Virus record (IMG/VR): IMGVR_UViG_3300025294_000254
Location: 1 to 50,088 of that record
Reading direction: 5' to 3' (one strand)
Length of the DNA stretch: 50,088 nt
Source: a virus
Shown here: positions 4,822 to 50,088 of the stretch, one piece after another
Layout: every line of letters starts with the position of its first letter
Numbering within the stretch: position 1 is the stretch's first letter
The notes under the pieces: generated by a model
Seen by the model: only the letters and a program-made list of their open reading frames with translations
The model's database searches: none
What the model was told of the DNA's origin: nothing
Made by a program: the position numbers and the translations under genes

Positions 4822-4973
4822 GCGCACCAAATGGCATGGACCACGACCAAGCCCGAGAGAACTGGTCCCGCGGGAACAACAAGCAACCTGGCTGCAACTG
4901 CCCCCCATGGCGATACAGCCCAGTCCACCCCAGACCCACCAACCCAGAATGCAAAATCCACGGCCCCAGATAG
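4818..4973 (+). CDS. 51-aa small protein whose stop codon lies in a terminator loop
   Basis: ATG 4818 overlaps the upstream stop (ATGA). Composition is unusual: Asn/Pro-rich with GCNCPPWRYS and NPECKIHGPR, giving three Cys and two to three His that could hold a metal. The last codons (GGC CCC AGA TAG) form the left arm and loop of the terminator hairpin at 4962-4983, so the ribosome reaches the stop while covering the hairpin. The gene at 9701 ends the same way. Confidence 0.6.
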   Translation: MSAPNGMDHDQARENWSRGNNKQPGCNCPPWRYSPVHPRPTNPECKIHGPR

Positions 4974-4983
4974 GGGCCTTTTT
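4962..4983 (+). terminator. Intrinsic terminator
   Basis: ggcccc / ggggcc six-base stem with a five-base loop followed by TTTTT and CATGCCC. The stop codon TAG of the upstream small gene is at the loop edge. It lies inside the early operon between this gene and the RecE-like exonuclease and may be partly read through. Confidence 0.75.
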
Positions 4984-5004
4984 CATGCCCAGAAAGAAGA
5001 GCAC

Positions 5005-8087: not shown

Positions 8088-8100
8088 CAGCCCCACCCCG

Positions 8101-8124
8101 AAGCCGCCAGCGAGCGGCTTTTTT
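8101..8124 (+). terminator. Intrinsic terminator
   Basis: aagccgc / gcggctt stem (7 bp) with loop cagcga and a run of six T, followed by CATGCCC as at 4984 and 24459. It closes the envelope-protein pair. Confidence 0.8.
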
Positions 8125-8203
8125 CATGCCCCGCGGCGCCCGGCCACTCCCACAAGCCGGGCGCCGCTGCTTCACCCCTACCCCGCCGCAGAAAGGGCAA
8201 TCC

Positions 8204-9704: not shown

Positions 9705-9910
9705 GTGTCCACGACGATCCTTGCTGCTTCGTATGCAAGGGCGTCCACGGGATCTGCCTGACCCGCGGCGCCTGCGAGCACCACGTGGCCGCCCGCCGCC
9801 GGCAGGACGCCGACGACCGGGCCCGGCGCCTCTACCGAGACCCAACCGGTGATGCCGCCGTCGCGCGCGCAATGCGCGCCACCAAACCATCCACAAAGGC
9901 CCCTCGATAG
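9701..9910 (+). CDS. 69-aa Cys/His-rich small protein with stop in terminator loop
   Basis: GTG 9701 overlaps the HAD stop. N-terminal CCFVCKGVHGICLTRGACEH has four or more Cys plus His, likely one zinc site, followed by a basic helical half. The gene at 23536 has the same pattern (SCCWTPHGVCARRGACQCH), so they are paralogues. The last codons CCT CGA TAG form the loop of the terminator at 9898-9920. Confidence 0.65.
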   Translation: MSVHDDPCCFVCKGVHGICLTRGACEHHVAARRRQDADDRARRLYRDPTGDAAVARAMRATKPSTKAPR

Positions 9911-9920
9911 GGGCCTTTTT
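9898..9920 (+). terminator. Intrinsic terminator
   Basis: ggcccc / ggggcc stem with a 6-base loop tcgata, then TTTTT. The loop contains the stop codon TAG of the small gene at 9701, as in the terminator at 4962. Confidence 0.75.
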
Positions 9921-9938
9921 CGTACCCAAAGGAGAGCA

Positions 9939-44874: not shown

Positions 44875-44894
44875 CCAACTTCTCACTCTTCCCA

Positions 44895-44917
44895 AGCCCC
44901 TCCATAGGGGCTTTTTT
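44895..44917 (+). terminator. Intrinsic terminator
   Basis: agcccc-tccata-ggggct with TTTTTT and CATGCCC. Same layout as at 4962, 8101, 9898 and 24425. Here the small gene upstream ends at 44874, so the stop is not in the loop. Confidence 0.8.
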
Positions 44918-44937
44918 CATGCCCTCAGGAGGACTCT

Positions 44938-47659: not shown

Positions 47660-48100
47660 ATGCCTGATTACATGTCCAGCATCACACTCGGCGGGATCTG
47701 CTTGTTCCTCGGAGGTATATCAGCGGTCCTGCTCGCCACGAAACCGCTTCGAAGCCTCACCAGGACGCTGCACCAGATCGCTGATGACTGGATCGGGGTC
47801 CCGGAACGCCGCGATGCGTCCGGGGCCCTGATCGCGCCCGGCCGGCCAAGCATCCCGGCCCAGATTGAAACTCTGCGGTCTCAGGTCCAAAACAGCCACT
47901 CAACGAACCTGCGTGACGACGTCGACAAAGTCGGCTCCGCGGTCAAGGAAGTTTCGGCGAAGCTCGACGAACACATCGAGATCGCCAAGCAATCGGACTC
48001 CGCCCAGGAGCGATTCGTCGGCCAGCTGGAGCGCTTCACGCCGATGCTCGAGGACCTCCACGCACGGTACGCAGGAAACAACCAGAGAGGCGACGCCTGA
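47660..48100 (+). CDS. Membrane protein in the lysis cassette (DUF2746-like)
   Basis: 146 aa, RBS GAAGGGG. One N-terminal span (~8-28, ITLGGICLFLGGISAVLLAT), then a helical cytoplasmic part (LRSQVQNSHSTNLRDDVDKV, KEVSAKLDEHIEIAKQ). This is the common DUF2746-type protein of actinophages next to lysin and holin. May assist lysis timing. Overlaps the lysin ATG by one base. Confidence 0.8.
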   Translation: MPDYMSSITLGGICLFLGGISAVLLATKPLRSLTRTLHQIADDWIGVPERRDASGALIAPGRPSIPAQIETLRSQVQNSHSTNLRDDVDKVGSAVKEVSAKLDEHIEIAKQSDSAQERFVGQLERFTPMLEDLHARYAGNNQRGDA

Positions 48101-48969
48101 TGCCACACAACCCAACAGCGATGCGGGCAGCCGCCGCGTTCGCCGTCGCCAACTGCAAAGGACGCTTCAAGGACCTGCAGGGCCGCGACATCAACACCGA
48201 CCAACGGTTCGGCTACCAGTGCATGGACCTCTGGAACTGGTTCCGCACCTACGTCCTCGGCTTCGCCGACGTCCTCCCGACCCCGGACGCCGCGAGCGTG
48301 TGGGAGCTGAACAACCAGCCGAAGCTCAGGCTGTGGCAGTTCTTCGATGGCGTCACCCCTGACCGCCCGGCCATGGCCGGTGACGTCGGGATCATGAACC
48401 GGGCCTTCTTCGGCAACGGCGTCGGCCACATCTTCATAGTTTTGCGGGACCTCGGCCAGCAGCTCGAAGTGCTGGAGCTCAACGGGCTCGGCGACGGATT
48501 CGAGGACGACGCCGGCGGCCAGCACGGCAGCCCGGCCCGCGTCCACACATGGCCCAAGACGAACCTCTACGGGTATCTCCGTTGGATCGGGCCGACCCCA
48601 GACACCGGAACCATCGCCCCCGCGGGCGACACCCAAAAGGAGATTTTCACCATGAGCCAGTTCGAAGAAGTCCAGAAGCAGCAGGGCCTGACTCACAAGA
48701 AGCTGAACAACATCACTGCAGGTCTGCGCGGCTTCGCGGCCGCTGTGAAAGGCTATGCGGTCCAGAACCAGAAGTGGCACGGCCAGACTCACGCGAAGGT
48801 GAACGCCATCCGCGAGGTGATGGACCAGTTCGCCGCCGGACAGGGCACCCAGATCGACTGGGACAAGGTCGAAGCCGCGGCCAAGAGCGGCGCCTCTGAA
48901 GCTTTCGCGGAGGCCATCGGCGGCCTCGACCCTGCAGCGCTCGAAGCACTCGAAGGGACGGACGCCTGA
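48100..48969 (+). CDS. Endolysin with N-terminal CHAP domain
   Basis: 289 aa. The CHAP core uses Cys41 (GYQCMDLWNWF) and His110 (GNGVGHIFIVL), with downstream Asn/Glu (LELNGLGD). It cuts peptidoglycan stem/crossbridge amide bonds. A PT-rich linker at ~165-175 leads to a helical, coiled-coil C-terminus (QGLTHKKLNNITAGLRGFAA) that may bind the cell wall or oligomerise. An internal ATG at 48651 in front of this C-terminal part (TTTTCACC-ATG behind AAGGAG) suggests a separately translated binding subunit. Confidence 0.88.
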   Translation: MPHNPTAMRAAAAFAVANCKGRFKDLQGRDINTDQRFGYQCMDLWNWFRTYVLGFADVLPTPDAASVWELNNQPKLRLWQFFDGVTPDRPAMAGDVGIMNRAFFGNGVGHIFIVLRDLGQQLEVLELNGLGDGFEDDAGGQHGSPARVHTWPKTNLYGYLRWIGPTPDTGTIAPAGDTQKEIFTMSQFEEVQKQQGLTHKKLNNITAGLRGFAAAVKGYAVQNQKWHGQTHAKVNAIREVMDQFAAGQGTQIDWDKVEAAAKSGASEAFAEAIGGLDPAALEALEGTDA

Positions 48970-48971
48970 CC

Positions 48972-49283
48972 ATGGACATCTTCGCAACTCTCATCACTGC
49001 GGCCCTGACGGTCATTTCGCCGTTGGCGATCGCCTACGCTAAGCAGGAGCACTGGACCAAGCTCGTCAAGATCGCGGTGCCGATCGCTGTGTCGGTCGCC
49101 ATCGCGGTCGCCTACCTCTGGGCGACCGGGAAGCTCGCCAGCCCCGGCGACTGGGCGCAATCCACACTGACCGTCTACGGTGCCCAGCAGCTCGCTTACA
49201 CGACCATCCTGCGCTGGTGGGCCACCATCCTCGAAAAGGCCGGCCAGCGGCCGCCCAAGCCCGACGGCCGCCACGAAGCCTGA
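48972..49283 (+). CDS. Holin
   Basis: 103 aa from ATG 48972. Two predicted spans: ~6-24 (TLITAALTVISPLAIAYA) and ~33-52 (IAVPIAVSVAIAVAYLWATG), then a charged tail (ILEKAGQRPPKPDGRHEA). Size, spans and position after the lysin match a class II-like holin that times lysis. Confidence 0.85.
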   Translation: MDIFATLITAALTVISPLAIAYAKQEHWTKLVKIAVPIAVSVAIAVAYLWATGKLASPGDWAQSTLTVYGAQQLAYTTILRWWATILEKAGQRPPKPDGRHEA

Positions 49284-49289
49284 CAAACG

Positions 49290-49329
49290 AACAGCCCCCG
49301 CCATCTGCATGATGGTGGGGGCTGTTTTG
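49290..49329. terminator. Strong, probably bidirectional terminator
   Basis: aacagcccccgccatc pairs with gatggtgggggctgtt across a 5-base loop (tgcat), with TTTT on the right side. It ends the late operon; read from the right it also ends the minus-strand gene at 49347. Its right arm is part of the inverted repeat 49308-49338. Confidence 0.9.
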
Positions 49330-49724
49330 TATGCAGGCGCCCGGAATCAGACTGTCAGGTTCTCAAAGAATGCCTGGGCTTCGTCCCACGGCGCGAGCAT
49401 GCCGATATCGAAGAACTGGCAGTTGATGAACTCGCAGTTCACCAAAGAGATTGCACCGGCCACAGAGGGCCTTGAGTCATCGATGCCAATAATGACAGCT
49501 TCGGGACCATCAGGATGATTCCACCCGCAGTTCTCGATTTTCAGGGCGCCCCGCCTGAGTACGACCGCGGGGCCCAGAAGGGTCACGCCCTCGGCTCGCA
49601 AGTCCCTGATTAAGTTGCCCTCCGGCGGGAGCGCCAGGCCGCCAATCTTGTACACGCCGCCCTTGATGTCCATGGCGCAAACGGTACGCCGAAGCCTGCA
49701 TACAAAACAGCCCCCACCATCATG
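49308..49724. repeat. Perfect 31-bp inverted repeat bounding a small gene
   Basis: Bases 49308-49338 and 49694-49724 are exact reverse complements. Each includes one arm of a terminator hairpin and gcctgcatacaaaacag. They enclose 355 bases holding one minus-strand gene. Could be an insulated cassette or an invertible segment. Confidence 0.85.
49347..49673 (-). CDS. Unknown 108-aa protein in a terminator-bounded cassette
   Basis: ATG at 49671-49673 (minus). No family recognised. Repeating hydrophobic-polar strands (GVTLLGPAVVLRRGALKIEN, GAISLVNCEFINCQFFDIGM) suggest a short beta-helix or beta-solenoid, with Cys-Asn pairs as in NxxF/NCxF turns. GC is lower than neighbours (34 of 60 in one sampled line). 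Only ~34 bases separate its start from the right-hand terminator, so its promoter must lie inside the inverted repeat, and the transcript would be near leaderless. Confidence 0.75.
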   Translation of the reverse strand: MDIKGGVYKIGGLALPPEGNLIRDLRAEGVTLLGPAVVLRRGALKIENCGWNHPDGPEAVIIGIDDSRPSVAGAISLVNCEFINCQFFDIGMLAPWDEAQAFFENLTV

Positions 49725-49745
49725 ATGATGGTGGGGGCTGCTTTT
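49708..49745. terminator. Second strong terminator, near copy of the first
   Basis: cagcccccaccatc and gatggtgggggctg form a 14-bp stem with a 5-base loop (atgat), then TTTT at 49742-49745. AAAA on the left gives a U-run for leftward transcripts, so it also ends the HTH/membrane pair to its right. Confidence 0.85.
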
Positions 49746-49750
49746 GTGTT

Positions 49751-49945
49751 TCAGCGGCGGCCGTCGCGGATCTGGTAGACCCTGCCGATGGTCAGGCCCG
49801 TTGCCTCGGCGATTTGCTTCGGCGTCGCGCTGCCCTCGGTCAGGGTTGCCTGGACGGCTGCCTTGAACTGGGCCTGCGCGGCGTCCAGCGCCTCCTGCGC
49901 CGCTCTCTGTGCCTCGTGGGCATCTGTCACCTGTTCGAGGCTCAC
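49751..49945 (-). CDS. Small HTH protein
   Basis: 64 aa from GTG 49943-49945 (minus), overlapping the stop of the gene to its right. A helical start (EAQRAAQEALDAAQAQFKAA) then TPKQIAEATGLTIGRVYQIR, a short helix-turn-helix. The longer frame up to 50023 is a shadow of the membrane gene. Possibly a small regulator beside the lysis end; role unknown. Confidence 0.75.
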   Translation of the reverse strand: MSLEQVTDAHEAQRAAQEALDAAQAQFKAAVQATLTEGSATPKQIAEATGLTIGRVYQIRDGRR

Positions 49946-50088
49946 GGCTCGCTCCTGCTGGCGTTCCAGACCGTCAGCGCGGTCACGACAACCCACGCAG
50001 CGCCGAGGCCCGCGAACGCCCACGGATAGGCCGGCCCGCCGACCGTGGCGCAGAGTGCGATGATCAGGCCGACCACGGCGGCTGTCCG
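49942..50088 (-). CDS. Membrane protein, truncated by the window end
   Basis: 48 residues visible, the start is beyond base 50088. AAVVGLIIALCATVGG, then YPWAFAGLGAAWVVVTALTV: two membrane spans and a basic end (NASRSEP). Coupled GTGA to the HTH gene (stop at 49942-49944). Likely a small phage membrane protein; function unknown. Confidence 0.75.
   Translation of the reverse strand, partial: RTAAVVGLIIALCATVGGPAYPWAFAGLGAAWVVVTALTVWNASRSEP

Follow-up and report, generated by a model that had tools for sequence, protein, structure and literature searches.

A short segment near the right end of an Arthrobacter-type temperate phage contig, enclosed by two terminators, carries a gene whose product we assign to the Knotted Solenoid (KS) family. 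We read this segment as an insulated moron that encodes the KS protein and has a duplicated terminator, a promoter of its own and probable expression in the lysogen, and we put the probability of this reading at about 0.8. On the evidence of sequence comparison, the phage-borne location of the gene is new, as against the published range of the family, which is bacterial only. Few knotted folds are known, the knotted solenoid among them. Its appearance as temperate-phage cargo, across Actinomycetota and fused to TIR domains or membrane segments, would turn a structural curiosity into a testable candidate in the conflict between phages and bacteria.

The sequence analyzed here (the window) is an entire virus record of 50,088 bases, which represents an incomplete contig. 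Its head genes are about 82% identical to those of 25 Arthrobacter globiformis phages. The KS gene occupies an accessory locus between the rightward late operon and a leftward HTH/integrase operon (Table 1). The same interval holds varying genes in the five close relatives EvePickles, Isolde, Seahorse, Tiff81 and Anekin, and the KS gene is absent from all five. The HTH gene to the right of the segment, beyond which the contig ends, is the positional counterpart of the integrase-adjacent HTH gene of the relatives (in EvePickles, gp36 beside the tyrosine recombinase gp38). The incomplete contig itself contains no Phage_integrase or Resolvase domain, the signatures of tyrosine and serine recombinases; the missing integrase domain is probably explained by the contig being cut at this point. 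As a separate observation, Isolde, Seahorse, Tiff81 and Anekin (L100, L101, L102 and L103) each have two annotated tyrosine integrases, one per strand, flanking the accessory locus.

Table 1. Features at and around the KS segment (window coordinates)
Feature	Position	Strand	Evidence and remarks
Endolysin	48100..48969	+	PHROG endolysin families, best E 1.2e-9
Holin-like membrane protein	48972..49283	+	Closes the rightward late operon; 37% identity, E 4.6e-16 to L051:10280-10555 (genome G088)
Left terminator	49283..49338		Terminates the rightward late operon; its right half (49308-49338) forms the left repeat arm, facing the KS gene
KS family gene, 108 aa	49347..49673	-	KS profiles match; GPA 34-36 and FxxC 82-85 conserved
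Candidate -10 box TACCGT (TANNNT)	49681..49686	-	Read by eye; precedes the ATG by 7 nt and lies outside the repeat
Right terminator	49694..49749		Terminates the leftward HTH operon; its left half (49694-49724) forms the right repeat arm, facing the KS gene
HTH protein	49751..50023	-	Last gene of the leftward operon; phrog_686, E 7e-10

Assignment of the enclosed protein

The KS fold was described in April 2026 as confined to bacteria, and there to a specific group, with an unknown function (PMC13123833). The family is defined by a right-handed 3_1 knot, formed by a skip-and-backtrack order of the coils, and by a phenylalanine followed three residues on by a cysteine at the opening of coils 2, 3 and 4. 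In the published architecture, coils of three strands are followed by a C-terminal capping helix, and a long linker precedes the last coil; the crystallized proteins form homodimers whose hydrophobic interface is conserved (PMC13123833).

A profile built exclusively from Caulobacteraceae KS proteins was searched against 2,275 ORFs from the window and the five relative phages, and the ORF between the repeats was the sole match (E 7.5e-10). With a profile of nine actinobacterial KS proteins, the E value of this ORF was 6.3e-18. None of 500 shuffled versions gave a significant match. Single-protein scans of viral and genome collections returned no homologue of the window protein. A homologue of 31% identity was found in a prophage of an isolate genome, among records brought in by the capsid gene; an identical protein is encoded by Arthrobacter sp. 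cf158. A profile made from the window protein and this homologue retrieves the crystallized KS proteins PDB 9qix, 9soj and 9rds (E 3.6e-6 to 8.1e-6), and the window protein alone retrieves 9soj (E 0.0026).

The GPA at residues 34-36 of the window protein, whose Gly-Pro opens the knot core, is shared without exception by the 14 to 19 family members that were aligned. The FxxC signature is kept in coil 4 (F82, C85), reduced to its cysteine in coil 3 (C49) and lost from coil 2, where the window protein reads AEGV; the cf158 homologue keeps it in coils 2 and 4. Judged by this homology, the leftward gene that the first-pass annotation had placed between the repeats is a real coding gene, and its product can be assigned to the KS family. 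The same annotation had given the gene no known family, which is correct for Pfam, PHROGs and NCBIfam (PADLOC also gave no match) and incorrect with respect to solved structures. At the level of the protein, its proposal of an undescribed system is refuted by the membership in the KS family.

An AlphaFold2 model of the window protein (pLDDT 73, pTM 0.67, moderate confidence) contains three-strand coils, a linker at about residues 53-73 and a capping helix at residues 96-107. An earlier prediction with two sequences had reached a pLDDT of 39. The predicted architecture, in which a long linker precedes the last of four three-strand coils and a helix caps the C-terminus, fits the published KS description with moderate confidence, and a dimeric knotted fold may be inferred for the phage protein. 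Foldseek returned no match in the PDB (to 2026-04-08) or BFVD, which apparently says nothing either way, as no KS entry came up. The KS profiles also weakly matched HalA of the Hailong defence system (PDB 9nyi, residues 71-157; E 0.006 with profile A3 and 0.00085 with A4). These matches were set aside as evidence because they possibly reflect just a shared Phe/Cys coil pattern.

Range, fusions and possible role of KS proteins

Profile searches detected KS genes in 39 of 149 Caulobacteraceae genomes, where they often stand in tandem pairs; the numbers for Micrococcaceae and Actinomycetota are 3 of 398 and 12 of 397 genomes. This range goes beyond the "specific group of bacteria" named in the published description. 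The tandem pairs of Caulobacteraceae (L024, L025, L026, L027, L028, L029, L031 and L032) are diverged paralogues, which could form heterodimers. Searches by tblastn found no relative in 50,697 phage records (queries: the KS proteins of the window, cf158, G022 and L089) or in 72,556 plasmids (queries: those of the window, cf158 and G022).

All three stand-alone KS genes of Micrococcaceae are located in phage settings. The cf158 gene is part of a prophage, where it stands beside a tmRNA gene and just past the integrase; the one in genome G022 adjoins an integrase remnant together with excisionase-like and virion genes; and the one in G088 comes directly after genes for an amidase endolysin and for a homologue of the window holin. 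The cf158 prophage starts beside the tmRNA gene (L023:3982-4348), probably its integration site. In a further viral contig, L107 (IMGVR_UViG_3300006881_000276), the KS gene at 257-538 lies just upstream of genes that we read from their sequences as coding for the large subunit and, putatively, the small subunit of a terminase. A tree of KS proteins requires two or more changes of the phage label and places the window protein on a long branch. A single origin of the phage genes is not supported by this tree, and in the absence of one phage clade it is likely that KS genes were acquired by phages more than once.

A clue to function comes from fusions. One Arthrobacter genome (G558) encodes a TIR domain followed by a C-terminal KS domain (L056:2150-3064), the one TIR-KS fusion found in all. 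Its TIR part matches Pfam TIR_2 (E 8.8e-21), and the closest PADLOC models are PDC-S66 (E 3.9e-55) and ThsB (E 7.6e-36). Four other proteins carry N-terminal hydrophobic segments followed by KS (L058:2960-3622, L059:2942-3586, L060:2604-3236 and L095:6889-7635). These membrane-KS proteins come from two phyla, as they occur in Caulobacteraceae and Actinomycetota, are encoded by single genes among unrelated genes and match no PADLOC model; the gene in L095 adjoins a tyrosine integrase gene and a DUF3800 gene. The layout of both kinds of fusion resembles that of effector-plus-sensor proteins of bacterial immunity. The fusions are a new functional clue and suggest a role in conflict. Some genes of other actinobacteriophages that lie centrally, beside the repressor or integrase, and are expressed in the lysogen confer defence (PMC6426596, PMC6426606).

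Because of these fusions and of the defence genes in other actinobacteriophages, we consider a role in phage-host or phage-phage conflict the most likely function of the window protein, either as a component of defence or exclusion or as a decoy against KS-containing host effectors. Taken jointly, these options fall somewhat short of an even chance. A household role is also possible, since KS is a common stand-alone chromosomal gene in Caulobacteraceae. A broader proposal, which we offer tentatively and regard as doubtful, is that KS may be an exchangeable sensor or dimerization module of a class of anti-phage immune proteins (TIR-KS and membrane-KS), and that temperate phages would carry the free module, insulated, to wire into or jam immunity. 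If true, this would be the first function for the knotted solenoid fold.

The decoy option can be stated more precisely: a free phage KS protein would pair with the KS domains of host TIR-KS or membrane-KS effectors, or take their ligand, and so block them. The homodimers of the crystallized KS proteins, with their conserved hydrophobic interface, make such pairing conceivable (PMC13123833), and stand-alone phage KS and effector-fused host KS proteins are found within the same genus. However, no KS protein has a known ligand or partner, and TIR-KS was seen in just one Arthrobacter genome and is distant in sequence from the window protein. We regard this specific mechanism as unlikely. Improbable in our view is a toxin-antitoxin-like module in which KS is the first gene of an operon and the window holds a solo remnant or regulator. 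This idea is prompted by the cf158 prophage (L021:1551-2592) and G022 (L050:9539-10526), where KS, a small ORF (X) and a PIN-domain ORF form an adjacent and co-directional block. However, the KS genes in the window, G088 and L107 have no PIN gene beside them, and the small X ORFs match no family.

The segment and its terminators

The arms of the exact 31-nt inverted repeat around the KS gene are separated by 355 nt, and the repeat lengthens to 56 nt at 88% identity. All mismatches of the longer repeat fall in the outer halves, which agree at about 18 of 25 positions; there is no mismatch in the inner 31 nt. Each 31-nt arm makes up one half of a long terminator hairpin that is followed by a T-rich tract. 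Folds of 76 nt at the two terminator sites, on both strands, have energies from -43.6 to -48.7 kcal/mol and z scores from -6.0 to -8.5, and no shuffled sequence was as stable as either site. The two identical halves both point inward and both end in TTTTGTAT. The outward-facing tracts are unlike each other, with TTCGTTTGTC on the left and CTTTTGTGTTT on the right. The first-pass annotation had described both the exact repeat with its terminator arms and the identical sequence facing inward on the left, and we find both as described. The pair can also be read as a 55-nt direct repeat of 80% identity, with CGAAGCCTG at the left of both copies. Since bidirectional terminators are nearly palindromic, duplication of a terminator is enough to explain the repeat geometry without recombination.

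The window contains no other exact inverted repeat of at least 24 nt within 5 kb, and none was found in the five relative phages (250 kb), the cf158 prophage or two prophage regions. A search for a known RNA element gave a sub-threshold match to a miRNA family, which is caused by the hairpin. Elsewhere in the window, four terminator-like hairpins (4958-4990, 8099-8131, 9895-9927 and 44892-44924) have a common tail close to TTTTTTCATGCCC. In the hairpin at 8099-8131 the ATG of the following ORF lies inside the tail, at 8126. These four hairpins are possibly a repeated terminator/start element.

We propose the following reading. The KS gene would have been inserted at the accessory locus between the rightward structural and lysis operon and the leftward HTH/integrase operon. 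Duplication of the bidirectional terminator, with its identical halves facing inward, would stop read-through from both neighboring operons, as polymerase entering the segment from either side would meet a half-terminator. The gene would then depend on its own short promoter, which is probably active in the lysogen. Several observations agree with the moron reading: an extra gene stands between conserved operons, it has no counterpart in the relatives, and it has terminators of its own in the two flanking hairpins. The view of the segment as compact, transferable cargo, insulated from both operons, had been raised by the first-pass annotation and is borne out by the inward-facing half-terminators, by homologues in other phages and prophages in either orientation and by the absence of the gene from the five relatives.

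That annotation had also concluded that the promoter must lie inside the right repeat. This position is no more than plausible: about 20 nt separate the repeat from the KS start codon, and the candidate -10 box lies outside the repeat. A sigma-70 consensus scan found no leftward promoter. By inference from its sequence and position, the TACCGT box would suit a leaderless transcript of the actinobacterial kind.

Inverted repeats at both ends of a gene also call to mind a transposable cassette, whose terminal inverted repeats would happen to be terminators. The gene is scattered among unrelated phages, and several homologues lie near recombinases. However, no target-site duplication was found at the repeat ends, no second copy of the repeat is present in IMG/VR, and the homologues lack the repeats, so that we consider this origin very unlikely.

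We give hardly any credence to the invertible switch proposed in the first-pass annotation, in which recombination between the 31-nt inverted repeats would flip the gene. The proposal drew on the perfect repeat around a single gene, and two comparisons could be taken to favor it. KS runs with the lysis genes in G088 and against them in the window, and is thus in opposite orientations relative to the homologous holin gene; the KS-X-PIN block lies one way round with respect to the integrase in cf158 and the other way round in G022. However, the window and prophage KS proteins are merely about 25-32% identical and belong to different phages. The opposite orientations must therefore be ancient or independent, and they indicate modular cargo, not a switch. 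A flip would put the second identical element in the same place and leave the promoter supply unchanged. No recombinase of the two main families is present on the incomplete contig, and the cf158 homologue has no flanking repeats. The 31-mer, which might have been expected to flank other genes in related phages, is absent from the relatives and from all other IMG/VR contigs. Finally, one might suppose that the ORF is spurious and the two terminators around it unrelated. The strong hairpins alone and the lack of a match in three protein family libraries might speak for this, but it is refuted by a highly significant KS homology that covers most of the ORF.

Comparison with known systems

The insulated KS gene can be compared with known systems at the level of the protein and of the locus. 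The window protein is homologous over the core to the Brevundimonas KS proteins (PDB 9RDS, 9QIX and 9SOJ; PMC13123833) and shares with them a GPA that opens the knot core, the FxxC in coil 4, a long linker separating coils 3 and 4, and a helix at the C-terminus. In contrast to these proteins, it is phage-borne and actinobacterial, its N-terminus is shorter (GPA at residue 34 instead of about 59-63) and it has lost the FxxC of coil 2. Its identity to other members of the family is 17-32%. Pentapeptide repeat proteins are the nearest unknotted solenoids (PMC13123833) and have a Phe/Cys/Gly coil pattern in common with KS; the window protein matches no pentapeptide model of Pfam. The TIR-KS and membrane-KS proteins have the KS domain in common with the window protein, C-terminal in the fusions. 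They add an N-terminal, effector-like part, whereas the phage protein consists of the KS domain alone.

At the level of the locus, the closest parallels are phage morons, among them the lysogenically expressed defence genes Sbash gp30/31 and CarolAnn gp43/44 of actinobacteriophages (PMC6426596, PMC6426606). Like the KS gene, these are accessory genes located between the late operon and the repressor/integrase region, vary among relatives and form their own transcription unit, which for the KS gene is a prediction. Unlike these morons, the KS gene is flanked by a pair of identical, inward-facing half-terminators.
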